Shown here piece after piece: positions 9,056-54,391 of a DNA stretch of 64,000 nucleotides. Position 1 is the first letter of the stretch. Each line of letters begins with the position of its first letter. The stretch comes from Haloterrigena alkaliphila (lineage in GTDB: Archaea > Halobacteriota > Halobacteria > Halobacteriales > Natrialbaceae), in NCBI RefSeq assembly GCF_017352155.2, contig NZ_CP071462.1:1984001-2048000 (forward strand). Direction: 5' to 3'. Below the pieces are notes generated by a model that was not told the DNA's origin, ran no database searches, and worked only from the letters and a program-made list of their open reading frames with translations. The translations under genes were made by a program, and so were the position numbers.

Positions 9056-9077
9056 GACTGACTGCAAGACAACGACA

Positions 9078-26187: not shown

Positions 26188-26197
26188 GCTATATACG
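26188..26197 (+). promoter_or_regulatory. TATA box of the first amidohydrolase-Rieske operon
   Basis: GCTATATACG is centred 28 bases before ATG 26220, predicting a leaderless message and fixing the start codon. Confidence 0.55.
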
Positions 26198-26219
26198 CCG
26201 ATACGGCGGTTGTACGACC

Positions 26220-38042: not shown

Positions 38043-38833
38043 CGAATCAGCCTCCGTTCGGCCCACTCGTAGCCGCGGACGGTGAAGAACGCGGCCAGCG
38101 AGATGATGACGAGGACGGCGAACATCAACGTGTAGGCGCCGACCTGACTGTACCGCAGGATCTCGAACCCGACGCCCTGGTTCGAGGCGATGAGTTCGGC
38201 GCTGACCAGCGCGATGAAGGCGATCGGAATCGCCTGCCGGATCCCGGTCAGGATGCTCGGAATCGTCGCGGGAATCACGACGCGAAGGGGAATCTGCCAC
38301 GACGGTACGCCCATCATCTGGGCGGACCAGATCAGGTTCCGGTCGATATCCTGCGCGGCGTTGTAGCTGTTCATCACGATCGGGAGCAGACAGGCCAGGA
38401 AGACGATCAGGATCGCCGTCTCGGTGCCGACGCCGAGCCAGAGGATCGCCAGCGGCACTAGTGCGGCCTTCGGGATCGGGTAGACCAGCGCCAGGAACAT
38501 CTCGAAGACGTTCTCGATCGGCTTCGATCGAGCCATTCCGACGCCCAGTAACACGCCGACGACGATGCTCAACGCGAGTCCGACCGCGATCCGGTACAGC
38601 GACACCTGCAGGTGGGGGATGATCTCTCCGGTCGAGAGGAGTTCCCACGTCGCCGTTCCGACCGCCGACGGCGGCGGGAGGATCGTCCGCTGAACGACGG
38701 TGCCGCTCGCAAACTCCCAGAGCCCGGCGACGATCGCGATCGGGATCCACTCGAACACGAACCACACGAACCGCCATAGGGGCGCGGGAACCGACTCTTC
38801 CAGCGTGGCCAGTCGTGAATCGGCGTACGACAT
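38033..38833 (-). CDS. NitT/TauT-type ABC importer permease (first)
   Basis: A 266-residue permease of the SsuC/TauC family with EAA-type loop RNLIWSAQMMGVPSWQIPLRVVIPATIPSI. It shares family layout and motif with the next gene, with which it overlaps. The ATPase gene lies 4 bases upstream. A heterodimeric permease is unusual for SsuC-like systems, which are mostly homodimers, but is found in several archaeal importers. Confidence 0.93.
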   Translation of the reverse strand: MSYADSRLATLEESVPAPLWRFVWFVFEWIPIAIVAGLWEFASGTVVQRTILPPPSAVGTATWELLSTGEIIPHLQVSLYRIAVGLALSIVVGVLLGVGMARSKPIENVFEMFLALVYPIPKAALVPLAILWLGVGTETAILIVFLACLLPIVMNSYNAAQDIDRNLIWSAQMMGVPSWQIPLRVVIPATIPSILTGIRQAIPIAFIALVSAELIASNQGVGFEILRYSQVGAYTLMFAVLVIISLAAFFTVRGYEWAERRLIRWA

Positions 38834-38837
38834 GGTG

Positions 38838-39629
38838 TTAGTGCTGGGCCCGTGGCGTCGTGTCGGTTTCCTCGCGAAGCGACTGCCACACGTCGTTTTT
38901 CGTCGCGGTGTACTCGTCGGACATGATGATCTCCTCGCGGCTCCGCGTCCGATCGACGTCGATCTCGACGGTCGTCTTCTTCGTGCCGGGGTGACGGGTC
39001 ATGATCATCACCCGCTCGGAGAGGTAGACCGCCTCCTCGACGTCGTGAGTGATGAAGATCACCGTCTTCTCGAGGTCGCGCCAGATATCGAGCAGGTGAT
39101 CCTGCAGCGACTCCCGGAGCGGCTGGTCGAGCGCGCCGAAGGGTTCGTCCATCAGGAGGATCTTGGGATCGTACGCGAGCGTCCGCGCGAGCGCGACCCG
39201 CTGTTTCATCCCGCCCGACAGCTCCTTGGGATACTTGTCCTCGAACCCGTCGAGGTCCATCATGTCGATGAACTTTTGGGCGGTGTCGCGACGCTCGGAC
39301 TTGCCGACGTCCTGTTGTTCGAGTCCGTACTCGACGTTTCCCATAACTGTCCGCCACGGGAACAGTGCGTAGTCCTGAAAGACGACGCCACGGTCCGTTC
39401 CCGGCCCGCTGATCGGTTGATCGTCGACGCTGATCGTCCCGCTGGTCTCCTCGAGGAAGCCGGCGATCAGGTACAGCAGCGTACTCTTCCCGCACCCGCT
39501 GGGCCCCACCACGCTGAGGAACTCCCCGCTCGGCACCTCCAGCGAGAGGTCCTCGATCGCTTTCGTTCGTTCGCCGCCCGATTCGTACACCTTCTCGAGA
39601 TTCGATATCGTGACGTGTCCTTCGACCAT
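38838..39629 (-). CDS. NitT/TauT-type ABC importer ATPase
   Basis: A 263-residue nucleotide-binding subunit. Walker A is GPSGCGKST, the signature is ELSGGMKQRVALARTL, and Walker B is ILLMDEPFGALD, with switch His in FITHDVEEAV. All are canonical and place it with SsuB/TauB. It lies between the substrate-binding protein gene (65-base gap) and the first permease (4-base gap). Confidence 0.95.
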   Translation of the reverse strand: MVEGHVTISNLEKVYESGGERTKAIEDLSLEVPSGEFLSVVGPSGCGKSTLLYLIAGFLEETSGTISVDDQPISGPGTDRGVVFQDYALFPWRTVMGNVEYGLEQQDVGKSERRDTAQKFIDMMDLDGFEDKYPKELSGGMKQRVALARTLAYDPKILLMDEPFGALDQPLRESLQDHLLDIWRDLEKTVIFITHDVEEAVYLSERVMIMTRHPGTKKTTVEIDVDRTRSREEIIMSDEYTATKNDVWQSLREETDTTPRAQH

Positions 39630-39694
39630 TATGGCTATCGGTTAGACGAGTGCGTATTTGAATTTTGCGCGGGTTGGTAACAGTGAACGTGACA

Positions 39695-40699
39695 CTAGAG
39701 GTGGTCCTCGATGTACTCGTTCGTCGCGTATTCCTGGACGTCGAACGACTCGTCGTGGATGCCGAGGTCGACGAGTTCGTCCATCGTCGCCTGGAGTGCG
39801 TCCATATCGATCTCGATCTGGTCCCGGTAGTAGTCGTTTTCCGTCAGGAAGAACCCGTCGATCATCTCCTCGGGGAGTTCGAAGTGGTCGGCCGCCAGCG
39901 AGACGACCTCGTCACGATTCTCGAAGATGTAGTCGACGACGCTCACGTAGTCCTCGCCCCACGCTTCGACGGCGTCGGACTTGTTCTCGAGCGCGCGGTC
40001 CGACGCGATGGTAAAGGCGAAGGGGTAGGCCCCGTCGAACGCGTCGTGGCTCGTGAACACCTCGGTGAATCCCTGGCTGCGCGGCTCCCCGGCGAACAGC
40101 GCTGGAAAGATCGCCGCGTCGAAAATTCCGTCCTGGAGTCCCTCGACGAACGTCGGGAAGCCCTGTTCCTGGAAGTCGACGTCGTCCTCGCTGAGGCCGA
40201 TCTCGTCCAGCATCTTCACGTAGACCGCGTGGATCCCCGTGCCGGTCGCGTTGACGCCCAGCGTCGCCCCCTCGAGGTCCTCCGGGTCGGTGATGTCCGA
40301 GTCCGGCAGCGAGTAGATCTCGAAGCCGAAGTGGTCGGGGTGGGCGTCCCAGAAGTCCGTCGCGATCGCCGTCATGCCGCCTGGACCCGTGACCGCACCG
40401 CCGTAGCTCTCGGTCGTGACCAGCCCCATGTCCGCCTCTCCGGCGGCGATCGCGTTGACCGTATCGGGCGTGCTCGAGTTTCGTGAAACCTCGAGTTCGT
40501 AGGCGTCGCCGAGGTTGTCGAGTTGATCCTGAATGTCGGGGATATCCAGCAACGAACCCAGATTTTCGACCGGGACGACGAAATTGAACCTGAGTGTCCC
40601 TGTATCCGATCCACCCGTACATCCCGCTAGTCCCGCGAGGCCGGCGGTTGCCGCCGCTGCACCTGTTTTGAGGAAGGTCCTCCTGTTACTTGGTAGCAT
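39695..40699 (-). CDS. NitT/TauT-type ABC importer, lipid-anchored substrate-binding protein
   Basis: A 334-residue periplasmic-binding protein type II (SsuA/THI5-like). The N-terminus has RRTFLKTG (Tat) and a lipobox AGLAGCTGG. The central ATLGVNATGTGIHAVYVKML stretch fits the NMT1 domain. A minus-strand T-rich box (CCTTTTTACC, about 40723-40732) puts the transcript start near the ATG. Its C-terminal block FFLTENDYY...TNEYIE recurs in the broken fragment at 49800-49987. Ligand unknown; aromatic acids are possible. Confidence 0.93.
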   Translation of the reverse strand: MLPSNRRTFLKTGAAAATAGLAGLAGCTGGSDTGTLRFNFVVPVENLGSLLDIPDIQDQLDNLGDAYELEVSRNSSTPDTVNAIAAGEADMGLVTTESYGGAVTGPGGMTAIATDFWDAHPDHFGFEIYSLPDSDITDPEDLEGATLGVNATGTGIHAVYVKMLDEIGLSEDDVDFQEQGFPTFVEGLQDGIFDAAIFPALFAGEPRSQGFTEVFTSHDAFDGAYPFAFTIASDRALENKSDAVEAWGEDYVSVVDYIFENRDEVVSLAADHFELPEEMIDGFFLTENDYYRDQIEIDMDALQATMDELVDLGIHDESFDVQEYATNEYIEDHL

Positions 40700-41178
40700 A
40701 TGCGCCCAAATTCGCTATACTGGTAAAAAGGTTGTGGTGAACGACAGACATCGACACGTATTATATATCGACTATACTGGACGAGTATCTTTCTGCGTTG
40801 AGTCGACCAACTCCGGCGACGAGAAGCGTCCTGTCGGACTAGTCGTCGACTACCCGAGCGTCGTTGCAGACATCGACTGCCTGCGTGTGGACGAGCGCAC
40901 GTTCCAAAGTCGCAGTCTCGAGTCCGCTAATGGGACGAAAATCCCAGTAAAAGAGCAGATATACCGGCGTTTAGGACGTGTTTCGTTCGCGGCGCCGAGT
41001 CGCGCCGTTGTCGGCGCCGTACCCGAGTCGGCTCTCGGCTCGCTGTGCACCGGTCGTCGACCGTACGTGGGAGCGCCATTTCGGAGTAGTTCTCGGTCGA
41101 CCGGCCGATTTGCGGAGCGGTACTGGCCGTCGGTCGGTCCGTTCGTCCCGGTAGTGACCGACCGATCCGGCAGTACAG
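40700..41178. other. 479-bp intergenic region
   Basis: Holds the promoter of the NitT/TauT importer and, further right, A/T-rich boxes (ATTATATATC, about 40760-40769) without a gene behind them. Frames on both strands are Ser/Arg-rich and unconvincing. Confidence 0.45.
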
Positions 41179-42285
41179 TTACGAGCGATCGTTCCCGTCC
41201 CTGTGCTTGTCCAGCACGTCCCAGTCCGGCGTTATCCCGAGTCCCGGCTCTTCCGGGAGCGTGATCGAGCCGCCCGACGGCTGCGGCGGCGACTCGTAGA
41301 TTTCGTTGCCGACGCTCCAGACGATGTCGTGGAATTCGACCAGGTTGCCGGCAGCGAGACCCGTGTACAGGTGCGCGTTCTGGAAGGGCCAGCCACCGCC
41401 GTGAACGAGCCGGAGATTGAACGCGTCCGCCATCCCGGCGACGCTCGTCGCCTCGGTGAATCCGCCGACGAAACACGCGTTCGGCATGCTGATGTCGACC
41501 GCTCCGTTTTCGATGAGTTCCCGGTGTCGGAAGCGGTGGCCCTCGTTCTGCCCTGCAGCGATCGGAACCCGCGTTCGGCTCCGGAGGTCCGCCAGCAGCG
41601 ACGCGTCGTTCCCGTAGACCGGCTCCTCGAACCAGCTGAGCGAGACCGACGCCGACTCGAGCCGGTTACACAACTCGAGCGCCTCGTCGACCGAGTACAG
41701 GTAGTTCGCATCGATCGCGAGCCCGATGTCGTCGCCGATCGCGTCGCGGACCGCGGTCACTCGCTCCGCGTCGATCCTCGGCGTCGCCCACTCGCCCTTG
41801 CCGACGACGATCTTGATGCGATCCGCGCCGTCGGAAACGAGGTCGCTCGCGATCTCGGCGAGTCGCTCCTCGTCCCGGATCGCTCGCCCGATCGTGTGGT
41901 ACACCGGAACCGTCTCGGACGCCCCGCCCAGGAGGCGCCAGACCGGTTCGTCGTACGCCTTCCCCTTGATATCCCAGAGCGCGATGTCGACGGCGCTCAC
42001 TGCCGTGCTCCAGGTTCCCGTCTGCGCTCGCGGATTGAGTTCGCGGTACAGCCGGTCCCAGACGCGCTCCGTCTCGATCGGGTTCCGTCCGGTTACCAGC
42101 GGTGCGATCTGCTCGTTGACGAACGACGCCGTGGCCTCCGGATAGAGGTAGCCGGTCTCACCGTATCCGGTGATTCCCTCGTCCGTTTCGACGGTGACGA
42201 ACACGATCGTGTCCTCCACGTCATCCCCGCCGGGAACGTCGGCGGGAACTGTGTACGTCGACGCTCGTACGCTTGTGATTTCCAT
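41179..42285 (-). CDS. Enolase superfamily (mandelate racemase/muconate lactonizing) enzyme
   Basis: A 368-residue protein with an N-terminal capping domain (1-120) and a TIM barrel. Metal ligands fit D192 (AIDANYLYS), E220/E221 (SWFEEPV), and the position in IAAGQNEGH where Q246 stands in place of the expected Glu, with E248 two residues on. The first base motif reads RIK (R156, K158) instead of KxK. A candidate general base is H295. It is probably an acid-sugar dehydratase or racemase; these changes make precise assignment unsafe. It follows the TctCBA operon, so the transporter's cargo may be its substrate. Confidence 0.87.
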   Translation of the reverse strand: MEITSVRASTYTVPADVPGGDDVEDTIVFVTVETDEGITGYGETGYLYPEATASFVNEQIAPLVTGRNPIETERVWDRLYRELNPRAQTGTWSTAVSAVDIALWDIKGKAYDEPVWRLLGGASETVPVYHTIGRAIRDEERLAEIASDLVSDGADRIKIVVGKGEWATPRIDAERVTAVRDAIGDDIGLAIDANYLYSVDEALELCNRLESASVSLSWFEEPVYGNDASLLADLRSRTRVPIAAGQNEGHRFRHRELIENGAVDISMPNACFVGGFTEATSVAGMADAFNLRLVHGGGWPFQNAHLYTGLAAGNLVEFHDIVWSVGNEIYESPPQPSGGSITLPEEPGLGITPDWDVLDKHRDGNDRS

Positions 42286-42424
42286 ACAGGAATCCCATCG
42301 GTAGCAATCCGATCTAAGGCCAAATAGCTACCCATCTCGGGTGTTCGGGCGACCGTACCCGAACGTGGGCTGACGGGACGGGGCCTCGAACGCTCCGTCT
42401 TCCATCGAAGGGGTGAGTCCCTCG

Positions 42425-43930
42425 TCACCTGGCACTCGCCACGTACCGTCGGAACGGCGACGCGAGCGCTTTCAGGAGGGGAAGCCCGACGAGGGTAACC
42501 GTCATCAGCGTCAGGAGCAGCGGGATCGGCTCGTTGACGAATATCATCAGTGAGCCGTCCGACAACTGTAGCGAGCGAATGAGGTTCTCCTCCGCGATCG
42601 GGCCGAGAATGATCCCGAGGACGAACGCGATGATCGAGTAATCGTATGTCATCAGGAAGAACCCGAACACGCCGAAGAACAGGACGGTGAAGACGTCGAG
42701 CCAGTTCCCCCGAAGTCCGAGGGAGCCAAGGGTGGAGAATACGATCACGAGCGGAATGAGGTAGTTGGAGTTCACCGCGGTGACGTACGAGGTCTTCGTG
42801 ATGAAGAAGAGCCCGACGGCGAGGATGACGATGTTGCCAATCAGCAGCGATAGGAACACGCTGTAGGTGATGTCGATGTTCGTCGTGAACAGCTCCGGTC
42901 CCGGGTTCAGTCCGTGCATCATCAGCCCGCCGAGCAGGATCGCGGTCGATCCGCTCCCCGGGATGCCGAACGAGAACGTCGGAATCAGCGAGCCGGCGAC
43001 CGTTCCGTTGTTCGCCGCTTCCGAGGCGATGACCCCGCGGTGGTTCCCGGAGCCGTACTCCTCGTCACCGCTGCCGCTCCGGACCGTTTCCGCGTAGGAG
43101 ACGAAGTTCGCGATAGAGGCGCCGGAACCGGGAATCGCCCCGATGAACATCCCGATGTATCCGGACTTTATCGTCGTGATCGGCGCCCGCAACACATCGA
43201 CGACACCGGAGAACACGCTGCCGTCCATGTCGACGCCGTCTCTGGCGATCCCGCCGCGCTCGCCAGCGAGCTTGATCATCTCGCCGATGGCGAAGATACC
43301 GATCAGGACCGCGACGAAGTTCAACCCGTCGAAGAGCAACATCGTGTCAAAGGTGTACCGCGGCTGTCCGACGGCGATCGGGAAGCCGATCGTCGAGAGG
43401 AGCAAGCCGAACGCGCCGGCGGTGAGACCCTTGACGAGCGAGCCGCGCGCGACGACGGTGATCAACGCAATCCCGAAGAGCGCGATCAGGAAGTACTCGG
43501 GCGACCCGAAGAGGAGGACGAGCGTCGTCAGATAGGGCGTCAGCAGGATCAGCGTGACGATCGCAAACAGCCCGCCGACCGCCGACGCCGTCGCCGAGAT
43601 TGAGAGCGCGTCCATCGCGCGGCCCTGTCGCGTCATCTGGTAGCCGTCGAGCGTCGTGGCCGCGGCCGCCGCCGTCCCCGGGGTGTTGATCAGGATCGCC
43701 GCGATGCTGCCGCCGTACATCGCGCCGCTGTAGATGCTTATTAGCAGGATGATTGCGTCGGGTCCGCTCAGACGGACCGTCAACGGGAGCACGATCGCTA
43801 ACCCGAGGTTGGGGCCCAGCCCGGGTATCGCACCGATCACGATTCCCAGGAGTACGCCGACGAGCAGCCAGCCCAACGTCGTCCCCGTGAAGAGGATATC
43901 GATCGCGCCGGTGAGGCTGCTCCCGATCAT
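42425..43930 (-). CDS. tctA: Tripartite tricarboxylate transporter, large permease TctA
   Basis: A 501-residue membrane protein with about eleven hydrophobic segments. The conserved GAIPGLGPNLGLAIVLPLT stretch is near the start and GAIPGSGASIANFVSYA in the middle, both typical of TctA. Its start directly follows the TctB stop codon. TctA provides the transport path for citrate, tartrate or aromatic acids such as terephthalate. Confidence 0.95.
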   Translation of the reverse strand: MIGSSLTGAIDILFTGTTLGWLLVGVLLGIVIGAIPGLGPNLGLAIVLPLTVRLSGPDAIILLISIYSGAMYGGSIAAILINTPGTAAAAATTLDGYQMTRQGRAMDALSISATASAVGGLFAIVTLILLTPYLTTLVLLFGSPEYFLIALFGIALITVVARGSLVKGLTAGAFGLLLSTIGFPIAVGQPRYTFDTMLLFDGLNFVAVLIGIFAIGEMIKLAGERGGIARDGVDMDGSVFSGVVDVLRAPITTIKSGYIGMFIGAIPGSGASIANFVSYAETVRSGSGDEEYGSGNHRGVIASEAANNGTVAGSLIPTFSFGIPGSGSTAILLGGLMMHGLNPGPELFTTNIDITYSVFLSLLIGNIVILAVGLFFITKTSYVTAVNSNYLIPLVIVFSTLGSLGLRGNWLDVFTVLFFGVFGFFLMTYDYSIIAFVLGIILGPIAEENLIRSLQLSDGSLMIFVNEPIPLLLTLMTVTLVGLPLLKALASPFRRYVASAR

Positions 43931-44482
43931 CTACAACCCACCCTGCATCAGGTCGACCGGCAGGATGTAGTCGAACGAGAGGGCGATCGCGATCGCCACG
44001 CCGAGCAATACCGCCGCAATCCGCTTTCGGATGCCGAAGAGCGCCGAGTACGCGATCACGAACAGCGGCGTCGCCAGCACGAGGCCGATGGCGTAGCCGA
44101 CGACTCCGTATCCGGCCAACAGGCCGACGAGTATCGCTTGCTGCCGCTCGGCGTGTGGCGACGCGTCCTCGTGCTCGCCGTCTCGCTCCGCTCGCGAGGT
44201 GACCGCCTCCTCGGACTCGACGAGTTCGTCTTCCTCGTAATCGAACATCGAGCCCGAGTCGTCGACAGCGTTCCGTACCGATTCGGGGAGATACCCCCGT
44301 GCGAGCAACAGGAGGGCGCCGCAGATCGTCGCGATCGCGGTGAAGCGGGGAAAGATGGCGACCTGGTAGGAAAACGCGAACGACTCGACGAGCATGTAGC
44401 TCGAGACCACGAGTATGCCGACGAGCATCACGGCTTCCGGCGTCGCTCGGTCCGTTATCGTACGATAAATTGAGTTGGCCAT
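43931..44482 (-). CDS. tctB: Tripartite tricarboxylate transporter, small permease TctB
   Basis: A 183-residue membrane protein with four hydrophobic segments and an acidic middle loop (about 75-110), longer than most bacterial TctB loops. The C-terminal VLLGVAIAIALSFDYILPVDL matches TctB. ATG 44482 is chosen; the extension to 44608 is antisense-like. It lies between tctC (8-base gap) and tctA (no gap). Confidence 0.92.
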   Translation of the reverse strand: MANSIYRTITDRATPEAVMLVGILVVSSYMLVESFAFSYQVAIFPRFTAIATICGALLLLARGYLPESVRNAVDDSGSMFDYEEDELVESEEAVTSRAERDGEHEDASPHAERQQAILVGLLAGYGVVGYAIGLVLATPLFVIAYSALFGIRKRIAAVLLGVAIAIALSFDYILPVDLMQGGL

Positions 44483-44490
44483 GCCTGTGC

Positions 44491-45465
44491 CTATTGCAGT
44501 TCTTCGAGGTCGACGTTCTCGGGGATCGCTTCCTCGTTCTCCTCCATGACCGAGACCGCCTCGTCGGGACTGATGAACTGGACGTCGTTGCCCGTCTCCT
44601 CGCTCCACTCCGCCATCGCGTCGCTCTGGAGCGTCTCTTCGAGGCTATCGGTCAGGGTCTGGAGCTGATCGTCCGGCAGGTCCGGCGGCGCGATGAACGC
44701 ACGCATGAAGCCACCCATGAAGTCGATCTCGGGATCATAGCCGGCGTCGGTGTACGTCGGCAGGTCGGGGAACACGCCGCTCCCGTCGCTGTGTAACGCG
44801 GTGTTCACGGTGACCTGACTCTGGGCGTCTTCGGCGGCCGTCTCGGTGACGATCCCGACTGGAACCTCGCCGCTGGCAACTGCCTCGAGGACGGGACCGC
44901 TCCCGTTGTACGCAATGAAGTTCTCCCACTGAATGTCGAGTCGTCCCTTCATCGTCTCGGCGAGGATGTGGCTTGGAGAACCCGTCGGCTGGCCCCCGAT
45001 CGCCTCGATGTCGCCGCTCTCGTACGCGTCGGCGATCGCTCCGAAGTCGTCCAACCCAGCGTCCGGGTTCGAGACGAGCACCCAGACGTCCCGCGTGTAA
45101 CCGCCGATGTAGCTGTAATCGCCGACGCTGAATCCGGGTTCCTGGATGAGGAACTGGGCCACGTCGGGCGAGTTGATAGGACCGAGGGTGTAGCCGTCCG
45201 GATCGGCGCTGTAAATCCGACTCAGTCCCTGCATTCCCGCCGCGCCTTCGATGTTTTCGAACTGTACACCCACGTCGTGGTTGTCCGCGATTTCCTGCCA
45301 GATCTGTCGCGTGTAGATGTCGGTCCCGCCGCCCTGTCCCCACGAGATGATGACGTGGAACTGATCGCTGGGGTATTCTCCACCGCTGTCGCCGCCGAGA
45401 CAACCGGCGAGCAACCCAGTCCCGATACTACCCGCAGCCGTGACATACGACCGCCTACTGAACAT
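44491..45465 (-). CDS. tctC: Tripartite tricarboxylate transporter, lipid-anchored binding protein TctC
   Basis: A 324-residue TctC/Bug-type binding protein. The N-terminus is FSRRSYVTAAGS followed by the lipobox LLAGCLGG, suggesting Tat export and lipid anchoring. The ligand-site region VIISWGQGGGTDIYTRQI corresponds to the Bug proteins' carboxylate-binding loop. A minus-strand TATA box is at about 45497-45506. It leads the operon tctC-tctB-tctA-enolase-type enzyme. Confidence 0.94.
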   Translation of the reverse strand: MFSRRSYVTAAGSIGTGLLAGCLGGDSGGEYPSDQFHVIISWGQGGGTDIYTRQIWQEIADNHDVGVQFENIEGAAGMQGLSRIYSADPDGYTLGPINSPDVAQFLIQEPGFSVGDYSYIGGYTRDVWVLVSNPDAGLDDFGAIADAYESGDIEAIGGQPTGSPSHILAETMKGRLDIQWENFIAYNGSGPVLEAVASGEVPVGIVTETAAEDAQSQVTVNTALHSDGSGVFPDLPTYTDAGYDPEIDFMGGFMRAFIAPPDLPDDQLQTLTDSLEETLQSDAMAEWSEETGNDVQFISPDEAVSVMEENEEAIPENVDLEELQ

Positions 45466-45804
45466 GCAGTGTGGTAGAACCCGACGCACCCCTTAATACT
45501 TATTATAATGTGCGGACATATAGAGGGTATCCATATTCCTGGGAAGATAGTTGAATTTTAATACAGAATCAGAGCTGAAGCTTCTCGCTCTGGTCTGGCC
45601 GATCCGAACCCCGCCGAGCGGAAAAGAGACGAGACGCGGGAGGCGAACCCGTCGAACGTCACGTGACCGTCGACCGAGCGTTCGGCCCGCCACCATCGGT
45701 CGGTGGCGCATTCATCATTGGTCGTCAGCGATTCGACCCTCGTCGGAACCGACCGGTGTACCCGATCGGTAGGTATAACACGTGTCGGATCGATTTCTCG
45801 ATGA
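45466..45804. promoter_or_regulatory. Divergent region between tctC and the LUD gene
   Basis: No gene recognised in 339 bases. A leftward A/T block (TAATACTTATTATAATG, about 45493-45509) serves tctC; a rightward box (GGTATAACA, about 45772-45780) is 27 bases before the LUD ATG. Confidence 0.5.
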
Positions 45805-46314
45805 ATGGTAGCGGATATCACAGAACGTTTCGCATCGTCGATGGCGGCCGCGAACGTCGAGTCCACGCGCGTCGAGGCGGCGGCGTTCGAGGCGGCCCTC
45901 GAGGAGGTAGTCGAATCGCCGGCCGTCGGTGCGCCACTCGGGATCGAGGGCGTCTCCCTCGAGGACACCGCGGTGACCGTCCCGCCGACGCCGCGACTGC
46001 TCATGGACGCCGAGACCGGCGTGACGCGCGTGCACGGCGGAATCGCAGAGTACGGCACGTTCGTGATCCAGTCGGACGCAGAGGGAACCGAACCGGTGAG
46101 CCTGTACCCGCGGACGCACGTCGGCGTCGTTCGCGCGAGCGACCTCCACGAGGACGTCGAGTCGGTCGCCGCGTGGCTCGACGAGGAGTTCGACGCGGGC
46201 CGCGATTCCGCGATTCTGGCGACCGGCGCCAGCGCGACCGGGGATATGGGCGAAATTGTCCGCGGCGTCCACGGCCCGCAAACCGTCCACGCCATCGTCA
46301 TCACGGATCGTTAA
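45805..46314 (+). CDS. LUD-domain protein (LutC/YkgG-like)
   Basis: A 169-residue LUD-domain protein, the LutC-like subunit of the LutABC lactate-oxidation complex. Family features are RTHVGVVRASDL and ILATGASATGDMGEIVRGVHGPQ near the end. ATG 45805 is chosen over ATG 45801 for frame and promoter spacing (TATA about 45774-45780). It is followed after 2 bases by the large Fe-S subunit gene, forming an operon. Confidence 0.92.
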   Translation: MVADITERFASSMAAANVESTRVEAAAFEAALEEVVESPAVGAPLGIEGVSLEDTAVTVPPTPRLLMDAETGVTRVHGGIAEYGTFVIQSDAEGTEPVSLYPRTHVGVVRASDLHEDVESVAAWLDEEFDAGRDSAILATGASATGDMGEIVRGVHGPQTVHAIVITDR

Positions 46315-46316
46315 CT

Positions 46317-48521
46317 ATGTCGGAAACCACCACTCGAGCGGAGAAGGCCGCGCGCATCAGACACCTCTTCCAGACCGAGGGCGAGGCGGTGTTCGAGAAC
46401 ACGAACCACATCAACAACGGTCGGTACGAGGCCAACGCCAGAACCGACGACATCGAAGAGCTTCGGTCGACGGCCCGCCGCATCAAAGAAGACGCCATCG
46501 AGCGCCTCCCCGAACTGATCGAGGAGATCCGCGAGAGCGTCGAAGCGAACGGCGGAACGGTCTACCTCGCCGACGACGCCGCCGACGCCAACCGCTACAT
46601 CACCGAGGTCGTCGAGGACAACGACGCCGAGTCGGTCGTCAAGTCGAAGTCGATGACCAGCGAGGAGATCGACGTCAACGAGGCGCTCGAGGCGAACGAC
46701 GTCGGCGTCTACGAGACCGACCTCGGTGAGTTCGTCCTGCAGGTCGCCGACGAAGCGCCCTCGCACCTCGTCGGGCCCGCGTTCCACAAGTCCACCGAGG
46801 AGATCGCCGAACTCTTCAACGCCCACTTCGATCCCGAGACGCCGTTCGAGACCGCGACGGATCTCACGCAGTTCGCGCGCGACTACGTCGGCGAGCAGAT
46901 CAGGGACGCGGACGTCGGGATGACGGGTGCGAACTTCGTGTTCGCCGAGTCGGGAACCATCGCGCTCGTGACCAACGAGGGCAACGCCCGGAAGTGCGCG
47001 GTGACGCCGGAGACCCACGTCGCGGTCGCCGGCATCGAGAAGCTCATTCCGAGCGTGCGGGAGTTCCCGCCGTTCGCCGAACTCATCGCGAAGGCCGCCG
47101 GCGGCCAGGACATCGCGACCTACCTGTCGCTGCTGTCGCCGCCGGTCGATTCGCCGGTCATCGACTTCGAGAACCCCGACGAACCGCTGTCCGGCGGCGG
47201 CCCCGAAGACCGAGAGTTCCACCTCGTGCTCATCGACAACGGCCGCACGGCCATGCGCGAGGACGACGAGCTCCGGGAGACGCTGTACTGCATCCGCTGT
47301 GGCGCCTGCGCGAACTCGTGTGCGAACTTCCAGCACGTCGGCGGCCACGCCTTCGGCGGCGAGACCTACACCGGCGGCATCGCGACCGGCTGGGAGGCGG
47401 GCGTCCACGGGCAGGAGTCCGCCGCGGAGTTCAACGACCTCTGTACGGGTTGCTCTCGGTGTGTCAACGCGTGTCCGGTGAAGATCGACATTCCGTGGAT
47501 CAACACGGCCGTCCGGGACCGCATCAACCGCGGCGCCGACCCCGAGCGGTTCGACTCGCTCGTGGAGGGGCTGACGCCCGACGAGGAGCCGGGGGGACTC
47601 GACGTTCAGAAGCGCCTGTTCGGCAACTACGGGACGCTCGCCCGCCTGGGCAGCGCGACGGCGCCGGTCTCGAACTGGCTGGCCGATCTCGGCCCGTCCC
47701 GGGCGCTCATGGAGCGCGCGTTCGGCGTCGACCGGCGCCGCGAGTTACCCGCGTTCGAGCGGACGACGCTCCGGGACTGGTTCGCCGACCGCGAGCCGCT
47801 CCCGTCGGCGGACGACGGCGACCGGTCGGCCGTCATCTACCCGGACGCCTACACGAACTACGTGCTGGTCAACCGCGGGAAAGCCGCCGTCAGAACGCTC
47901 GAGGCGCTCGGCGTCGACGTCGCCGTCGCACCCTGTTACGAGAGCGGCCGCGCGCCGCTCTCCCAGGGCATGATCGAGACGGCGCGGACGAACGCGACCC
48001 GCGTCGCCGACAGCCTCGAGCCGTCCATCGAGGCGGGGCGGGACGTGGTCGTCATCGAACCCTCGGATCTGGCGGCGTTTCGCCGCGAGTACGACCGGTT
48101 GCTGCCCGCCGACCGCGCCGAGAACCTCGCCGAGCACAGCTACGAGATCATGGAGTACGTCTACGGCCTGCTGGAGAACGGTGCGGACGCGGCCGTCCTC
48201 GAGGGCGGCGCCGACGTCGCCTACCACAGCCACTGCCAGCAGCGGACGCTTGGGGTGGACGTATACACGGAGGAGGTCCTCTCGAAACTGGACTACGACG
48301 TCGTGACCTCGGACGTGGAGTGTTGCGGGATGGCCGGCTCGTTCGGCTACAAGTCGGAGTACTACGAGCTCAGCATGGAGGTCGGCGACACCCTGCGCGA
48401 GCAGTTCGAGGGGGAGACCGATCGCACGCTGGTCGCCAGCGGGGCGTCCTGTCACGAACAGCTGGGATCGCTGTTCCCCCGCGAGTCCGTCCATCCGATC
48501 GAACTCGTCGCGCCGCGCTGA
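46317..48521 (+). CDS. LutB-LutA fusion: LUD, 4Fe-4S and CCG domains
   Basis: A 734-residue protein that combines a LutB-like LUD domain (1-310), a ferredoxin-like domain with CIRCGACANSC (about 324) and CTGCSRCVNACP (about 375), and a C-terminal CCG part (HSHCQQR, then CCGMAGSFGYKSEY near 668). In bacteria these are separate LutB and LutA. It would oxidise L-lactate or another hydroxyacid with the preceding LUD subunit. The linker NYGTLARLGSATAPVSNW resembles the same part of the FAD/Fe-S enzyme at 33004, so the C-terminal thirds are paralogous. Confidence 0.92.
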   Translation: MSETTTRAEKAARIRHLFQTEGEAVFENTNHINNGRYEANARTDDIEELRSTARRIKEDAIERLPELIEEIRESVEANGGTVYLADDAADANRYITEVVEDNDAESVVKSKSMTSEEIDVNEALEANDVGVYETDLGEFVLQVADEAPSHLVGPAFHKSTEEIAELFNAHFDPETPFETATDLTQFARDYVGEQIRDADVGMTGANFVFAESGTIALVTNEGNARKCAVTPETHVAVAGIEKLIPSVREFPPFAELIAKAAGGQDIATYLSLLSPPVDSPVIDFENPDEPLSGGGPEDREFHLVLIDNGRTAMREDDELRETLYCIRCGACANSCANFQHVGGHAFGGETYTGGIATGWEAGVHGQESAAEFNDLCTGCSRCVNACPVKIDIPWINTAVRDRINRGADPERFDSLVEGLTPDEEPGGLDVQKRLFGNYGTLARLGSATAPVSNWLADLGPSRALMERAFGVDRRRELPAFERTTLRDWFADREPLPSADDGDRSAVIYPDAYTNYVLVNRGKAAVRTLEALGVDVAVAPCYESGRAPLSQGMIETARTNATRVADSLEPSIEAGRDVVVIEPSDLAAFRREYDRLLPADRAENLAEHSYEIMEYVYGLLENGADAAVLEGGADVAYHSHCQQRTLGVDVYTEEVLSKLDYDVVTSDVECCGMAGSFGYKSEYYELSMEVGDTLREQFEGETDRTLVASGASCHEQLGSLFPRESVHPIELVAPR

Positions 48522-48665
48522 TCGGCGCGGCGAGGATATCGGGGCCAACCGGTCGCCGCGATGGACTCGGTCTCGCAGATGCGTATCGGCGCGAGCCCAA
48601 TTTCCGTTTGAGTGATCTGTTTCGACGTTCGTCATGTTTATTAGCGAATACCCTGTTTATCGGGT

Positions 48666-49658
48666 ATGAGTCTGGTCGAGGAGATCGAAGGCGCGAGAAT
48701 TATCGCCGACCGTATCGCGAACGTTCAACCGGACGAGCACGTATTGATTGTCGGAGACTGGCGGTCGGACGCGGTGACGGAACGACTCGCTGCGGCCGTC
48801 CACACGCTCGACGCCGAGGCGTCGGTCGCGCTCATGGCGCCGCGGGAGTACGACGGGAACGAGCCGCCCGAGACGGTCGCCGCCGCGATGGGCGAGGCGG
48901 ACGTGATAATCCTCGTTCCGACCAGGGCGATCGCCCACAGCGCGGCGGCCAATCGGGCGCTCGAAGAGGGGGGCCGGGTCGTCGCGATGGCAAAGCTGTC
49001 CCTGGAGCAACTACGCGCGGACGGACTGCGGGTCGATTTCGAGGAACTGGCGCCGAAAGTGAGGGAGATGGGCGATCTGTTCTCGTCGGCCGAGACGGCC
49101 CGGCTGACGGCGCCGAACGGGACCGACGTGACGTTTGCCCTCGGCGGGCGCGGGGGGAACGGCCTGACCTGCACCGTCGCGGAACCGGGCGATTTCACGG
49201 TCGCGTACTGCGCCGAGGCGAACGTCACGCCGGTCGCCGAGGGGACGAACGGCCGGATCGTCTTCGACGGCTCCATCCCGAACCTCGGCATCGGGATGCT
49301 CGAGGACGACATCGTGGTGGAGATCGAAGACGGGAGCGTGACGAGCATCGACGGCGGACAGGAAGCCCAGAAAGTCGAGCGGATCTGGGCCGAGTACGAC
49401 GATCCGGCGGTACGTCAGGCCGCCGAACTCGCCGTCGGCATGAACCCGAAGTGTACCGAACTCGACGGCGGCTTCATCAACGATCACGGCGTGTTCGGGA
49501 CCGTCCACGTCGGGTTCGGTACGAGTAGTAACCTCGGCGGCGAGACCCGGACGCCGCTGCACTTCGACATCACCCTCCAGTCGGCCACCCTCGAACTCGA
49601 CGGCGAGACGGTGCTCGAGGACCGCGAGTTCAAGATTCCCGCCGTCGACGCGCGGTAA
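48666..49658 (+). CDS. M29/NicX-like metalloprotein (aminopeptidase T or dihydroxypyridine dioxygenase relative)
   Basis: A 330-residue protein of the family that includes M29 aminopeptidases and the Fe(II) enzyme 2,5-dihydroxypyridine 5,6-dioxygenase (NicX). Likely metal ligands lie in GTVHVGFGTSSNLGG and TPLHFDITLQ (the H-x-D pair), with EGTNGRIVFDGSIPNLG upstream. Length (about 330-350) fits NicX better than M29 peptidases (about 400). If dioxygenase-like, it would act on a ring such as a pyridinediol; with the maleate isomerase at 23849 this would recall nicotinate breakdown, but the two genes are 25 kb apart. Confidence 0.82.
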   Translation: MSLVEEIEGARIIADRIANVQPDEHVLIVGDWRSDAVTERLAAAVHTLDAEASVALMAPREYDGNEPPETVAAAMGEADVIILVPTRAIAHSAAANRALEEGGRVVAMAKLSLEQLRADGLRVDFEELAPKVREMGDLFSSAETARLTAPNGTDVTFALGGRGGNGLTCTVAEPGDFTVAYCAEANVTPVAEGTNGRIVFDGSIPNLGIGMLEDDIVVEIEDGSVTSIDGGQEAQKVERIWAEYDDPAVRQAAELAVGMNPKCTELDGGFINDHGVFGTVHVGFGTSSNLGGETRTPLHFDITLQSATLELDGETVLEDREFKIPAVDAR

Positions 49659-49707
49659 TCGTCTCGAGACGCGTTTTCTGCCGCTGCGCTATCTTTGATG
49701 CCGAGCG

Positions 49708-49806
49708 CTAGTACCCCAGTTCGAACCACCAATTCGCGGCGTAGCAGACGGGAACGACGGCACAGAGGAATCCGATGAACCCGAACGAGACGGTCCAGTC
49801 GAATCT
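49708..49806 (-). pseudogene. 3' remnant of a membrane-protein gene
   Basis: Reading leftward to the TAG at 49708-49710, the frame encodes a hydrophobic tail (FDWTVSFGFIGFLCAVVP, then NWWFELGY) that looks like the last membrane helix of a transporter. Upstream it runs into sequence antisense to another gene fragment, so only the end survives. The family cannot be named. Confidence 0.5.
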
Positions 49807-49987
49807 GTCGGTGTCCGAGGACCTGCTCGACGCGTTCTTCCTAACGGAGAACGACTACTACTGGGACGAACCCGTCACGGACGTCGACCGGATGCAGACT
49901 ATGATGGACGACCTGACCGACCTCGGATTCCTCGACGAGAACTTCACCGTCGGTGATTACATCACCAACGAATACGTCGAACAGTAG
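49800..49987 (+). pseudogene. 3' remnant of a NitT/TauT-type substrate-binding protein gene
   Basis: About 60 codons ending at the TAG 49985-49987 encode DAFFLTENDYY, then MDDLTDLGFLDENF and TNEYVEQ. These match the C-terminus of the intact binding protein at 39695-40699 (FFLTENDYY, TNEYIE) at roughly half of the positions. The apparent start codon at 49775 lies in the neighbouring fragment, so this is a truncated gene and not a small protein. Confidence 0.7.
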
Positions 49988-50313
49988 GCCCATCGCGCTC
50001 GGGCCGATCGTACTCATGTCGACGTAGATCAGGTCGTCGTCCGCGCCTTCGACGAGTCCGTCGTCCCCGAGCGCGATCTGGTGGACGTGCTCGCCCTTCG
50101 GGAGCGACGAGATGACGACGTCGGCGGCGGCCGCGATTTCGAGGGGGACGATCGGGCGTCCGCCCCGTATTCGACCATCGTCTCGACGGCGTCCCGGTCC
50201 ACGTCGTTCACGACGAGGTCGTATCCGCCGTCGACGAGATTTCGCGCCATTTCGCCTCCCATGATGCCGAGACCGATAACTCCGACCGTCGGCGTCGGCT
50301 CTGTGCCAGACAT
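49988..50313 (-). pseudogene. 5' remnant of a 3-hydroxyisobutyrate dehydrogenase-type gene, frameshifted
   Basis: ATG 50313 begins a normal NAD-binding domain (TVGVIGLGIMGGEMARNL, then VVNDVDRDAVETM). After GAD the frame is lost around 50145-50160; the sequence continues in another frame as IAAAADVVISSLPKGEHVH and LIYVDMSTIGPS. It ends abruptly at about 49988, where the binding-protein remnant begins. About 110 of an expected 290 codons are left, so the gene is inactive. Confidence 0.75.
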
Positions 50314-50432
50314 GCTATCACGTTCCATACCAATGTGATATAACGTTTTTGTCCCGCGACGCGCGGAATTTGAGAGCGGCCACGGCGAACCGGTGGCGAC
50401 GGACGAACACGCGGCGTTCGAACGTCGACGAC

Positions 50433-50807
50433 TTACTCGGTGTTGACGTAGACGATGCCGTCCTCGACGACGACGTCGTAGGTCGGCACGATGTAGCTGT
50501 CGTCGCCGATGTGTTTCCCGGTCTCGACGTCGAACGACCAGCCGTGCCACGGACAGGAGATGATACACTCGTCGCTGTACTCCTGTTCGACGCGGTTCCC
50601 GGGGCCGGGCCACTCGCCGACGAGTCGGGGTTCGACCTGTCCCTTGCAGACGGGGCCGCCGTCGTGCGGACACTGATTGCGGAGCGCGTAGAACTCGTCG
50701 TTCGCCTTGATGACGCCGACCTCGGCGCGACCGACGTTGATGATTCTTGCTTCGCCGTCGTCGAAGTCGCTCACCGGTGCGACCTCGACGCGACCGTCGT
50801 CGCTCAT
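50433..50807 (-). CDS. Rieske [2Fe-2S] protein with long inter-motif loop, copy 2
   Basis: A 124-residue Rieske protein with ligands C46-x-H48 and C85-x2-H88 (CPWHGWSFD). The gap of 36 residues is almost the same as in copy 1 (27335-27718), and the loop again contains LVGEW followed by GPGNRVEQEY, so the insertion is a conserved property. Two extra cysteines (C54, C81) occur in the loop of this copy only. It overlaps the amidohydrolase stop by 4 bases, the same arrangement as in the first module. Confidence 0.9.
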   Translation of the reverse strand: MSDDGRVEVAPVSDFDDGEARIINVGRAEVGVIKANDEFYALRNQCPHDGGPVCKGQVEPRLVGEWPGPGNRVEQEYSDECIISCPWHGWSFDVETGKHIGDDSYIVPTYDVVVEDGIVYVNTE

Positions 50808-51892
50808 AGGTCGAACACCCCCGCGGCGTTCCGACCGAGAATGTCAAGCCGGTCGTCGTCGTCGATCATGGGCAGATCCGTGATGATGCTCGGACTGTCG
50901 AAGTCCCAGTGGGGGTAGTCCGAGGCGTACAGCAGGTTCTCGGTCCCGAGCATGTCGAAACAGAGTTCGAGCAGGTCGGGCCGCGCGGACACCTCCAGCG
51001 GCTGCGTGCCGTAGTAGTAGTCCGCGATGTACTCGCCGGGCTTCTTCTCGAGCAGCGGCGCCTCCTCGGAGCGCTTGAGGTACTCCTCGTTGAGGCGGCT
51101 GATGAGACCGGGGAGGTAGGTGACGCCCGATTCCATGAAGACGATGTCGAGGTCCGGGAACTTCACCGGGACCCCCTGGGCGGTCACGCTGACGATTTGG
51201 GACATGTTCGACTCGAGGAACCCGAGCGTGTGCGTCTCGATCATGTCCTGGTAGCCGGCGCGGACGTACTCGTCGAGGCCGGAGCCGCCAGTGTGGTAGA
51301 CGACCGGGAGTCCGAGGTCCTCGCAGCGCTCGTAGATGGGATCGTACTTGCGGTTGCCCAGCGGCGGGGAGGCTCCCGCGGTGACGAAGACGACGCCCTT
51401 GATGGCCTCTTCGTCTTCGACCCGATCGAGGACGTCCATCGAGGCCTCGATGTCGTGGTACGGCATCGGCGCGAGGCCGTAGATCCCCTCGTCGGGATCG
51501 AGGACCTGGTCGAGCATGTAGTCGACGTGGCCCTTGACGAAGGATTCGACGCGCCGGTCGTCGGCTCTGACCCCACCCATCGCCAGAATGAGGTGTGAGA
51601 TCTGGAGCGTCGCGTCGATGTCGAGTTGGTCCATCCCCTCGAGGACGTCCTCCTTCTCGTCCCCGCCGTCAGGGTACTCCGAGAACTCCCGGTCGACCTT
51701 CCCGTAATTGAACCGATTGCCGGTCGACGCGGGGAAGAACGCGCTCAGATTCTGTTTAACTCCCGTCCCGCCCCAACCACTCTTCTGGAACTTGGTCTTC
51801 CAGGGCTCGGGCATGTACGGCGCGGCCTGCTCGAAGGTGTCGGCGTAGTGCCAGTCGCAGTCGACGACCAGATGCTCGCTTGGATCGATCAT
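50804..51892 (-). CDS. Amidohydrolase-2 family protein (ACMSD/decarboxylase-like), copy 2
   Basis: A 362-residue paralogue of the protein at 26220-27338, aligned from VDCDWHYAD to the C-terminus. The first metal motif reads DxDxHxxD where copy 1 has DxDxHxxE; YHTGGSG, ETHTLGFLESN and SDYPHWDFDSP are all kept. A minus-strand TATA-like box (GATTTATTG, about 51945-51954) gives a leader of about 30 bases, so unlike many genes here it is not leaderless. Reaction unknown; two copies with different first motifs could act on different substrates. Confidence 0.9.
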   Translation of the reverse strand: MIDPSEHLVVDCDWHYADTFEQAAPYMPEPWKTKFQKSGWGGTGVKQNLSAFFPASTGNRFNYGKVDREFSEYPDGGDEKEDVLEGMDQLDIDATLQISHLILAMGGVRADDRRVESFVKGHVDYMLDQVLDPDEGIYGLAPMPYHDIEASMDVLDRVEDEEAIKGVVFVTAGASPPLGNRKYDPIYERCEDLGLPVVYHTGGSGLDEYVRAGYQDMIETHTLGFLESNMSQIVSVTAQGVPVKFPDLDIVFMESGVTYLPGLISRLNEEYLKRSEEAPLLEKKPGEYIADYYYGTQPLEVSARPDLLELCFDMLGTENLLYASDYPHWDFDSPSIITDLPMIDDDDRLDILGRNAAGVFDL

Positions 51893-52264
51893 CGACGGAT
51901 CACTCCCGTGTGAACGTGCGGCATGCCCGAGTAGAAGTATCCATTCGCAATAAATCTTTAGTCATGTTTAATATCCTAAAGGCGTTGAAATCCACGGCCC
52001 TCACAGGTGTCGGCTGCGTTCTCGAGGCGCCGGCGGTCGACCCGAGGGCGACACCGGTCGCCGTTCTCGAGGAGGTTGCCGACGGCCACCTCGAGCGGCG
52101 GTTCGTCGCCGAGGACGGGCCACCCGACGACTGACGCGTCAGCGGACCGCGAGGCGCCGTCGGCACGCGTTCCGGTGAGCCGCGATACCCGAGCGCGGCG
52201 GCCCGCGGGATGGGGTGGCCTAGCAAAGATTTATGCCGTTGTTCGAGACATGTTGAGCCGTACT
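51893..52264. other. 372-bp divergent region before the 2-oxoacid dehydrogenase E1 genes
   Basis: Contains the amidohydrolase promoter at its left and an E1-alpha TATA box (GATTTATGCC, about 52229-52238) at its right. A possible 56-codon frame lies between them and is listed separately. Confidence 0.5.
51964..52134 (+). CDS. Doubtful 56-residue protein
   Basis: The frame MFNILKALKSTALTGVG to the TGA at 52132 ends in an acidic stretch (HLERRFVAEDGPPDD), with G/C-ending codons as in true genes. No family is recognised. Its promoter would have to overlap the leftward TATA box of the amidohydrolase, which argues against it. It could be the 3' end of a lost gene. Confidence 0.3.
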   Translation: MFNILKALKSTALTGVGCVLEAPAVDPRATPVAVLEEVADGHLERRFVAEDGPPDD

Positions 52265-53422
52265 ATGGACGATAGTCTCCGATCGGTCCCCCCCGAGTCG
52301 GTCGACGTCGGCGTCGACCCGCTCTCGCAGGGGGACCTCGAGATCGAAACGTACCAGGTCGTCCGTCCGGACGGGACGTACGATTCGGACCGGGTACCGG
52401 ACATCGACGACGAGGCGCTCTGCGATCTCTACCGGTGGATGCTTCTGCAGCGCGTCTACGACAATCGCGCGACGAAACTCCAGCGACGCGGGAAACTCGG
52501 AACGGTCGCCTCCGGACGCGGCCAGGAAGCCAGCATCGTCGGCAGCGGCTACGCGCTGTCCGACGACGACTGGATCTTCCCGTACGGTCGGGAAGCCGCC
52601 GCGCTCCTGATGCATGGCCTGTCGATGCGCGACCTGCTGCTGTACTGGCGTGGCATCGAGGACGCTTCGCGGATGGAGGGGGCCAACGTCTTCGGTCTCG
52701 CCATCTCGATCGGCTCGCACATCCCGCTCGCGACCGGCAAGGCGTGGGGGATGCAACTCGAGGGCGAGGACTCGATCGCCTTCGCGAACCTCGGGGACGG
52801 GGCGACCTCGACGGGCGCGTTCCACGAGGGGATGAACTTCGCCGGCGTGCTCGGCGCCCCGGCGGTGTTCTTCTGCCAGAACAACCAGTACGCGATCTCC
52901 CTGCCGTTCGACGAGCAGACGAACGCGAACACGGTGGCCCAGAAGGCCCTGGCCTACGGCGTCGACGGGATCCGCGTCGACGGCAACGACGTGCTCGCGG
53001 TGTACAACGCGATGTCGACGGCGCGGGAACGCGCGCTCGAGGGCAACCCGGTCCTCGTCGAAGCGGTCACGTACCGCCGCGGCGCCCACACGACGAGCGA
53101 CGACCCGACGCGGTACCGCGAAGACGAGGAGGTCGAGGAGTGGAAGGACCGCGACCCGCTCGAGCGCTACCAGGCGTTCCTCGAGCAGACCGGGCGGTGG
53201 GATGCCATCGACGAGGAGGCGATCCGCGAGGACGTCGAGGAGGAGTTCTCGGCGGCCGTCGACGCCGCCGACGCCTTCGAGGAACGCGGCATCGAGGAGA
53301 TCTTCGCCCACCTCCACGAGGAGATGCCGCCGGAACTGGAACACCAGCTCGAGGAGTTCCGCGAACTGCTGGAGGAGCGACCGGACATGTACGACTACAT
53401 CGAACGACGGCCCAAGGGGTAA
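52265..53422 (+). CDS. 2-oxoacid dehydrogenase complex, E1 alpha subunit
   Basis: A 385-residue thiamin-diphosphate enzyme subunit. The ThDP/Mg motif runs GDGATSTGAFHEGMNFAG to FCQNNQYAIS, and the phosphorylation-loop equivalent RRGAHTTSDDPTRYR follows. It decarboxylates a 2-oxoacid (pyruvate or branched-chain) together with E1 beta, which starts 3 bases later. ATG 52265 fits the TATA box at 52229-52238; an ATG at 52250 is the alternative. Substrate class cannot be fixed from the sequence. Confidence 0.93.
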   Translation: MDDSLRSVPPESVDVGVDPLSQGDLEIETYQVVRPDGTYDSDRVPDIDDEALCDLYRWMLLQRVYDNRATKLQRRGKLGTVASGRGQEASIVGSGYALSDDDWIFPYGREAAALLMHGLSMRDLLLYWRGIEDASRMEGANVFGLAISIGSHIPLATGKAWGMQLEGEDSIAFANLGDGATSTGAFHEGMNFAGVLGAPAVFFCQNNQYAISLPFDEQTNANTVAQKALAYGVDGIRVDGNDVLAVYNAMSTARERALEGNPVLVEAVTYRRGAHTTSDDPTRYREDEEVEEWKDRDPLERYQAFLEQTGRWDAIDEEAIREDVEEEFSAAVDAADAFEERGIEEIFAHLHEEMPPELEHQLEEFRELLEERPDMYDYIERRPKG

Positions 53423-53425
53423 TCA

Positions 53426-54391
53426 ATGAACGCGACAATCGTCGAAGCAGTCAACGACGCACTACACGAGGAGATGACGAACGACGACCGAACGCTGGTC
53501 TTCGGGCAGGACGTCGCCGAGTCCGGCGGCGTGTTCCGCGCGACCGACGGCCTGAAAGAGGAGTTCGGCGGGGAGCGGGTGCTGGACACGCCGCTGTCGG
53601 AGATCGCGATCGTCGGCTCGGCCGTCGGGCTGGCGACCCACGGCTTCCGTCCGATCGCGGAGATCCAGTTCTCCGGCTTCCTGCCGCCGGCGTTCGATCA
53701 ACTGGTCACCAACGCCAGCCGCATCCGGTGGCGCACCCGCGGGGAACTCTCGGCCCCGATGGTCGTCCGGACGCCCTACGGTGCCGGCGTGCGCGCGCTG
53801 GAACACCACTCCGAGAGCCTCGAGGCGGCCTACGGCCACATTCCCGGCCTCAAGGTGGCGATCCCCTCGACACCCCACGACGCCAAGGGGATGCTCGTCA
53901 GCGCCATCCGGGACCCCGACCCGGTGCTGTTCATGGAGCCCAAGCACGTCTACCGCTCCTTCAGAGAGGAGATCGACGAGGGCACCTACACCGAACCGCT
54001 CGGGAAGGCCGCCGTTCGCCGCGAGGGCTCGGACCTCACCGTCATCTCGTGGGGCGCGATGATGCACAAGACTCTCGAGGCGGTCGACAACCTGGACGTC
54101 GACGCCGAGGTGATCGACCTGCGGACGATCTCCCCCTTCGACAAGGAGACCGTCACGGAGTCGGTCGAGAAGACCGGTCGCTGCGTCGTCGTCCACGAGG
54201 CGGCCAAGACTGGCGGCTTCGCCGCCGAAATCGTCGCCTCGATCAACGACGAGGTGCTGATGTACCTCGAGGCGCCGATCGAGCGCGTGACCGGGTTCGA
54301 CGTCCCCGTCCCGCTGCTGTCGATGGAGGACTTCTACATCCCGCACCCGCCGCGGATCGAGGAAGCGATCAAAGACACCGTCGCGTACTGA
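53426..54391 (+). CDS. 2-oxoacid dehydrogenase complex, E1 beta subunit
   Basis: A 321-residue E1 beta subunit. Typical blocks are GQDVAESGGVFRATDGL at the N-terminus, IQFSGFLPPAFDQLVTNASR in the middle and GRCVVVHEAAKTGGFAAEI plus PVPLLSMEDFYIP at the C-terminus. It forms the ThDP site with E1 alpha. The E2 and E3 genes converge on it from the right instead of following in the same operon. Confidence 0.94.
   Translation: MNATIVEAVNDALHEEMTNDDRTLVFGQDVAESGGVFRATDGLKEEFGGERVLDTPLSEIAIVGSAVGLATHGFRPIAEIQFSGFLPPAFDQLVTNASRIRWRTRGELSAPMVVRTPYGAGVRALEHHSESLEAAYGHIPGLKVAIPSTPHDAKGMLVSAIRDPDPVLFMEPKHVYRSFREEIDEGTYTEPLGKAAVRREGSDLTVISWGAMMHKTLEAVDNLDVDAEVIDLRTISPFDKETVTESVEKTGRCVVVHEAAKTGGFAAEIVASINDEVLMYLEAPIERVTGFDVPVPLLSMEDFYIPHPPRIEEAIKDTVAY

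Follow-up and report, generated by a model that had tools for sequence, protein, structure and literature searches.

Stubs of three broken genes form a deletion scar beside an amidohydrolase-Rieske gene pair in Haloterrigena alkaliphila

The window, i.e., the whole stretch of DNA analyzed here, comprises 64,000 nucleotides of Haloterrigena alkaliphila (positions 1,984,001 to 2,048,000 of NZ_CP071462.1) and belongs to contig 1 of a 4.27 Mb genome assembly in 3 contigs that is 99.8% complete. Halostagnicola and Natribaculum belong to the family group of this genome. Between an intact M29-like gene and an intact Rieske ferredoxin gene the window contains no full-length gene; the ~600 bases at 49708-50313 hold the stubs of three broken genes. 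The analysis confirms these bases as a deletion scar, real and ordinary in kind. The scar and its surroundings consist of the following features.

37263-40699, minus strand: intact importer (permease, ATPase and binding protein); its ATPase forms a clade with Halostagnicola (96/92)
40742-52248: block of ~11.5 kb that holds the scar, delimited by blastn of Halostagnicola intergenic flanks
48666-49658, plus strand: intact M29-like gene, 61% identical to the gene that precedes the intact binding-protein gene of locus L221
49708-49812, minus strand: 3' remnant of an MFS transporter gene, the last ~34 of ~400 codons and the stop, placed by profile
49802-49812: junction 1, MFS interior joined to binding-protein interior, both without 5' ends; both profiles claim these bases
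49802-49987, plus strand: 3' remnant of a NitT/TauT-type substrate-binding protein gene, the last ~60 codons and a native-looking stop, placed by profile
49985-49990: junction 2, binding-protein stop abutting dehydrogenase interior, 0-3 bases after the stop at 49987
49988-50313, minus strand: 5' remnant of a beta-hydroxyacid (3-hydroxyisobutyrate-type) dehydrogenase gene, the first ~108 of ~296 codons, placed by profile and Pfam NAD_binding_2
50137-50155, minus strand: frameshift in the dehydrogenase remnant, where two frames meet
50433-50807, minus strand: intact Rieske ferredoxin gene (Pfam PF00355)
50804-51892, minus strand: intact amidohydrolase gene, AibH2-like (PF04909; PDB 8sm7 and 6m1w_B; f12 clade, 100/100)
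52277-54391, plus strand: E1 alpha and beta genes of a 2-oxoacid dehydrogenase, Halostagnicola type by identity and tree

The three pieces were placed by searching all six reading frames of 49650-50440 with profiles made from full-length relatives, namely 37 binding proteins, 19 MFS transporters and 10 dehydrogenases. The MFS profile matches with model positions 383-416 of 416 at 49812-49711 on the minus strand (22.7 bits), followed by a stop codon at 49710-49708. The binding-protein profile matches with positions 297-355 of 356 at 49802-49978 on the plus strand (64.2 bits), and the stop at 49985-49987 sits in the same place as in the protein of genome G208. On the minus strand, the dehydrogenase profile matches in two segments that lie in different frames, namely positions 10-65 at 50304-50137 (61.3 bits), after a start codon at 50313, and positions 62-114 of 308 at 50149-49991 (61.1 bits). 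That is, the pieces cover 34 of 416, 59 of 356 and 105 of 308 model positions, respectively. Because the E-values of this run cover only six target frames, it is the independent genome searches that carry weight; their best E-values are 1.0e-5 for the MFS piece, 2.5e-19 for the binding-protein piece and 2.3e-18 for the dehydrogenase piece. The three placements are more than chance. A preliminary description of the locus, made from the letters and a list of open reading frames, had proposed three truncated genes joined end to end, and this is borne out almost to the base, with coordinates, strands and family names right. Its 'membrane protein' gene can be sharpened to an MFS transporter gene, on the annotation of two matched records, and the frameshift that it saw in the dehydrogenase stub corresponds to the two minus-strand profile segments.

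The MFS piece is short and, when taken alone, the weakest of the three, but the point where its match stops is precisely the C-terminal end of full-length transporters (47-62% identity). Of 125 family genomes searched at E up to 1, 85, the own genome counted, gave a match to the MFS end. Many of the matches are weak and a small number fall in short frames, but the best ones are the C-terminal ends of long frames, and each of the 19 MFS loci fetched covers the reference protein completely or almost completely in alignment. The binding-protein piece is 53% identical to the intact gene in G208 and 54% to its own intact paralogue at 39695-40699, and lies at a similar distance from every type (about 45-55% among the top 20 or so matches). 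Its end is matched in 28 of 392 order genomes, the own one included, and the other matches, 38 of 38, lie in frames of 222-447 aa. The dehydrogenase piece, 55-59% identical to intact genes in five genomes, is matched in 11 of the 392, again counting the own genome, and the remaining 10 of 10 have it in frames of 300-503 aa. A narrower name for this enzyme, such as HIBADH, was considered and rejected. The intact Natribaculum homologue falls below the cut-offs of all listed NCBIfam models (298 of 397 bits for 2-hydroxy-3-oxopropionate reductase and 234 of 292 for HIBADH), and we therefore claim only the superfamily, which we take to be that of the beta-hydroxyacid dehydrogenases.

Searches of the own genome with the full-length proteins returned, for MFS, one intact paralogue (57%), six relatives at 26-29% and the fragment, which is 59% identical to the reference; for the binding protein, the intact paralogue (52%), the fragment and two relatives at 22-27%; and for the dehydrogenase, only its two pieces and one relative at 28%. 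The missing gene parts are thus absent elsewhere in the genome, i.e., they were deleted, not moved. The junctions are given as ranges rather than to the exact base, since the nearest homologues are only about 53-62% identical to the remnants in amino-acid sequence. The frameshift breaks the dehydrogenase piece. The frame of the binding-protein piece has stayed open and is well conserved, and decay may be recent. The frameshift could be a sequencing error; the truncations are not explicable in that way.

The genes at 50433-51892 are the second amidohydrolase-Rieske pair of the window, the first lying at 26160-27709. Compared with PDB entries, the second amidohydrolase matches 8sm7 (1.3e-41) and chain B of 6m1w (1.3e-31), which has the same sequence as in 8ful; according to PMC10401708 and PMC10811679, 8ful is AibH1H2 and 8sm7 is one of the candidate monooxygenases. 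In a pairwise alignment the Asp aligned with D342 of AibH2 is conserved. It is a PF04909 protein, similar to AibH2 and paired with a small Rieske ferredoxin, and so is AibH2-like. Such proteins are described in PMC10401708 as having a small Rieske protein in 90% and permeases in 40% of their neighbourhoods, and haloarchaea are among the groups in their tree. Both pairs of the window look like AibH2/SfbO-type monooxygenase systems, a prediction that draws on a PDB comparison for the copy at 51 kb only. Their amidohydrolases share 66% identity but do not group together: the one at 26 kb is in a clade with G208, the one at 51 kb in a clade with f12. On the other side of the scar, the M29-like protein is a distant relative of 2,5-dihydroxypyridine 5,6-dioxygenase (7cn3, 3.6e-9).

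Twenty loci in related genomes were mapped, namely 17 of 20 fetched stretches together with L037, L038 and L060. The stretches left out, L228-L230, are dehydrogenase loci without an amidohydrolase of this type, and the 20 loci come from fewer than 20 genomes, as three of these, G329, G394 and G396, contribute a pair. All 20 loci contain a binding protein gene; it is convergent with the amidohydrolase gene in 8 (L038 and L220-L226), codirectional in 11, and about 15 kb away from it in L227. ATPase and permease genes are both found in 15 loci and, within the fetched stretches, neither is found in four (L038, L222, L224 and L226); L227 shows the ATPase only, its stretch ending close by. An LDH-like dehydrogenase gene (LDH/MDH-like, a label based on visual inspection and on how the H. 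larsenii homologue is annotated) occurs in seven of the 20. In half of the eight convergent loci (L220, L221, L223 and L226), it lies between the binding protein and Rieske genes, on the Rieske strand. These four haloarchaeal loci resemble the window in gene order, orientation and families around the scar, but their dehydrogenase is LDH/MDH-like, they have no MFS gene, and their genes are intact.

Judged by gene order, the best intact counterpart of the scar is L221, which reads MR_MLE, TctC, TctB, TctA, M29-like (+), binding protein (+), dehydrogenase (-), Rieske (-), amidohydrolase (-). The gene families of L221 recur around the scar and upstream of it, with MR_MLE and Tct reversed in strand and two LUD genes intervening. 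The comparison with relatives that the preliminary description had proposed as a way to the intact locus is successful in part: the order binding protein-dehydrogenase-Rieske-amidohydrolase exists intact, in one case with the M29-like gene in front, but the dehydrogenase is of another family and the MFS gene is absent. A 3-hydroxyisobutyrate-type dehydrogenase is found in none of the 20 loci and an MFS gene in this slot likewise in none, and no genome was found to have all three genes intact in the order of the scar. Loci L211 and L213, from two fragmented draft genomes, have binding-protein, permease and LUD genes split over two pieces, reflecting either sequencing errors or further decay in the cluster.

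The scar lies in a part of the window with mixed ancestry. In Halostagnicola the binding protein and E1 alpha genes are neighbours, about 270 bases apart, and the matching flanks in the window are split at 40741 and 52249. We read the ~11.5 kb in between as an insertion in the lineage of the window, rather than as a loss in Halostagnicola, on the thin basis of two Halostagnicola loci (species). For the window amidohydrolase, identity is 84-87% to genes from nine genomes, of which eight belong to group f12 (one being Halarchaeum nitratireducens) and one to f5, and 72% to Halostagnicola. E1 alpha, outside the block, is 87-89% identical to Halostagnicola versus 58-62% to f12, and the importer ATPase 88% versus 76-79%. 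The trees agree, with the amidohydrolase in the f12 clade (100/100) and with E1 alpha (100/99) and the ATPase (96/92) grouped with Halostagnicola. These identities and trees show a cluster that is a patchwork from more than one lineage, in which the intact importer at 37263-40699 is of Halostagnicola type and seems to represent the resident set. What is new here is that the scar lies inside a block that splits genes adjacent in Halostagnicola, and that the gene trees reveal a mosaic; in the literature searched, judged by titles and abstract openings, we found no description of this locus. Two other stretches of the block were left as spacer. An open 56-aa stretch at 51964-52131, between the amidohydrolase and E1 alpha genes, is possibly another eroded remnant, and was considered as a fourth one, but gave no convincing homologue; 40745-41178 has no homologue in the plasmid collection.

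The history proposed for the scar is partly supported. Its ancestral order would have been M29-like (+), MFS (-), binding protein (+), beta-hydroxyacid dehydrogenase (-), Rieske (-) and amidohydrolase (-), from which no fewer than two deletions, made by non-homologous joining, would have led to the scar; two such deletions and a frameshift are the smallest set of events that fits. One deletion would have taken out the 5' parts by which the divergent MFS and binding-protein genes faced each other, together with their common upstream region, about 2 kb or more; the other would have removed ~63% of the dehydrogenase gene from its 3' side, as far as the stop codon of the binding protein. The frameshift would also have broken the dehydrogenase gene. 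The events may have occurred in another order. The broken genes were probably expendable, because the cluster came as, or joined, the ~11.5 kb block beside a resident importer of the same kind, and redundancy with that intact importer would be a reasonable cause. An origin mediated by an insertion sequence or by repeats was considered and rejected: the list of open reading frames, inspected by eye, has no frame for a transposase at the scar, the edges of the block show neither a flanking repeat nor a transposase, and the longest repeat between these edges is 10 bases, compared with a mean of 8.6 and a maximum of 11 in single-base shuffles. A recombination scar adjoining the second amidohydrolase-Rieske pair, with no insertion sequence visible, is also what the preliminary description had proposed. 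In a relative, L220 (G304), a 412-aa TnpB-like frame, so labelled by eye, lies at 8603-9841 between the LDH-like dehydrogenase and Rieske genes; the gap is comparable to part of the scar, and the window contains nothing of this insertion.

We regard the 606 bases, with a probability of about 0.86, as the non-functional leftovers of three genes of a catabolic cluster. That the three frames are instead small functional proteins is extremely unlikely: the 70-aa frame at 49775-49987 is indeed open from an ATG start, but homologues of the binding-protein and dehydrogenase pieces all lie in long frames (all 38 other matches and all 10 other genomes), none of them a conserved full-length small protein, and the dehydrogenase remnant is out of frame with itself. 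Slightly less remote, yet still very improbable, is an assembly or sequencing artefact. The breaks are known from the assembled sequence alone, and two independent breaks in 200 bases are unusual; against this stand the size, contig number and completeness of the assembly, and the absence of each missing part elsewhere in it. One might also suppose that a stray binding-protein fragment, never native at this site, was caught as repair filler between the MFS and dehydrogenase genes, in keeping with the fact that both ends of the piece abut other genes within about 10 bases and that an MFS gene occupies this slot in 0 of 20 related loci. This too is unlikely, since a binding protein gene lies near amidohydrolase or E1 genes in all 20 loci, in 8 of them convergent with the amidohydrolase gene, and the piece terminates at its natural stop. 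L221, where an intact binding protein gene has this orientation, comes close to refuting the filler reading.

A further possibility, compatible with the deletion of native genes that we favor, is that a complete second ABC importer, with binding protein, ATPase and permease, was deleted as a unit. The preliminary description had suggested the loss of a second importer cluster. For the binding protein the remnant shows this loss; for the importer as a whole it is plausible, at somewhat less than even odds, and unproven because some relatives have a lone binding protein there. ATPase and permease genes accompany the binding protein in 15 of the 20 related loci, and f12 genomes place them exactly between LUD2 and the binding protein-Rieske-amidohydrolase genes. 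Yet the scar has no ATPase or permease remnant, and tblastn of the window with the ATPase and permease of the intact importer returned only their own genes and ATPases of 28-29% identity at 9-10 kb. Moreover, in the stretches fetched, 4 of the 20 loci show the binding protein gene with no ATPase or permease gene, and L221, with the closest layout, has its ATPase and permease genes beyond the amidohydrolase, where the window has the intact E1 genes.

The dehydrogenase stub bears on the possible function of the cluster. According to PMC7782822, AibD1 of the aib cluster, a 3-hydroxyisobutyrate-dehydrogenase homologue, oxidises the hydroxylated product. The aib cluster of Rhodococcus wratislaviensis described there and the window both have a PF04909 amidohydrolase-type hydroxylase, a Rieske ferredoxin, a 3-hydroxyisobutyrate-dehydrogenase-like enzyme (AibD1 in aib) and a transporter. 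The window differs from what is described of that cluster in having one amidohydrolase per pair, a NitT/TauT or MFS transporter instead of an amino acid permease, and a broken dehydrogenase. By analogy with AibD1, the broken gene would sit where the product-oxidising enzyme is expected.

Tentatively, and with less confidence than an even chance would warrant, the scar may be the record of a merger of two versions of one monooxygenase pathway. A resident cluster of Halostagnicola type would have received, between its importer and E1 genes, a block that brought along an amidohydrolase-Rieske pair, a binding protein and a 3-hydroxyisobutyrate-type dehydrogenase; the hydroxylase of the block would have been retained, and its binding protein and dehydrogenase lost by deletion. 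In that case the stub of the dehydrogenase would point to chemistry like that of the aib pathway, in which a methyl group is hydroxylated and the resulting alcohol is then oxidised. A dehydrogenase stub of the 3-hydroxyisobutyrate type beside an AibH2-like pair is a clue, of mild importance, to the role of uncharacterised haloarchaeal proteins. By itself the scar is routine gene decay and it is the context that is informative, as the mosaic shows which parts of such a pathway get exchanged and which are discarded. As in the prokaryotic pseudogenes from failed horizontal transfer described in PMC522871, truncated and frameshifted genes are found here in a mosaic, apparently acquired block; unlike in that description, three genes of one gene order are cut to adjoining stubs, and relatives retain an intact counterpart order.
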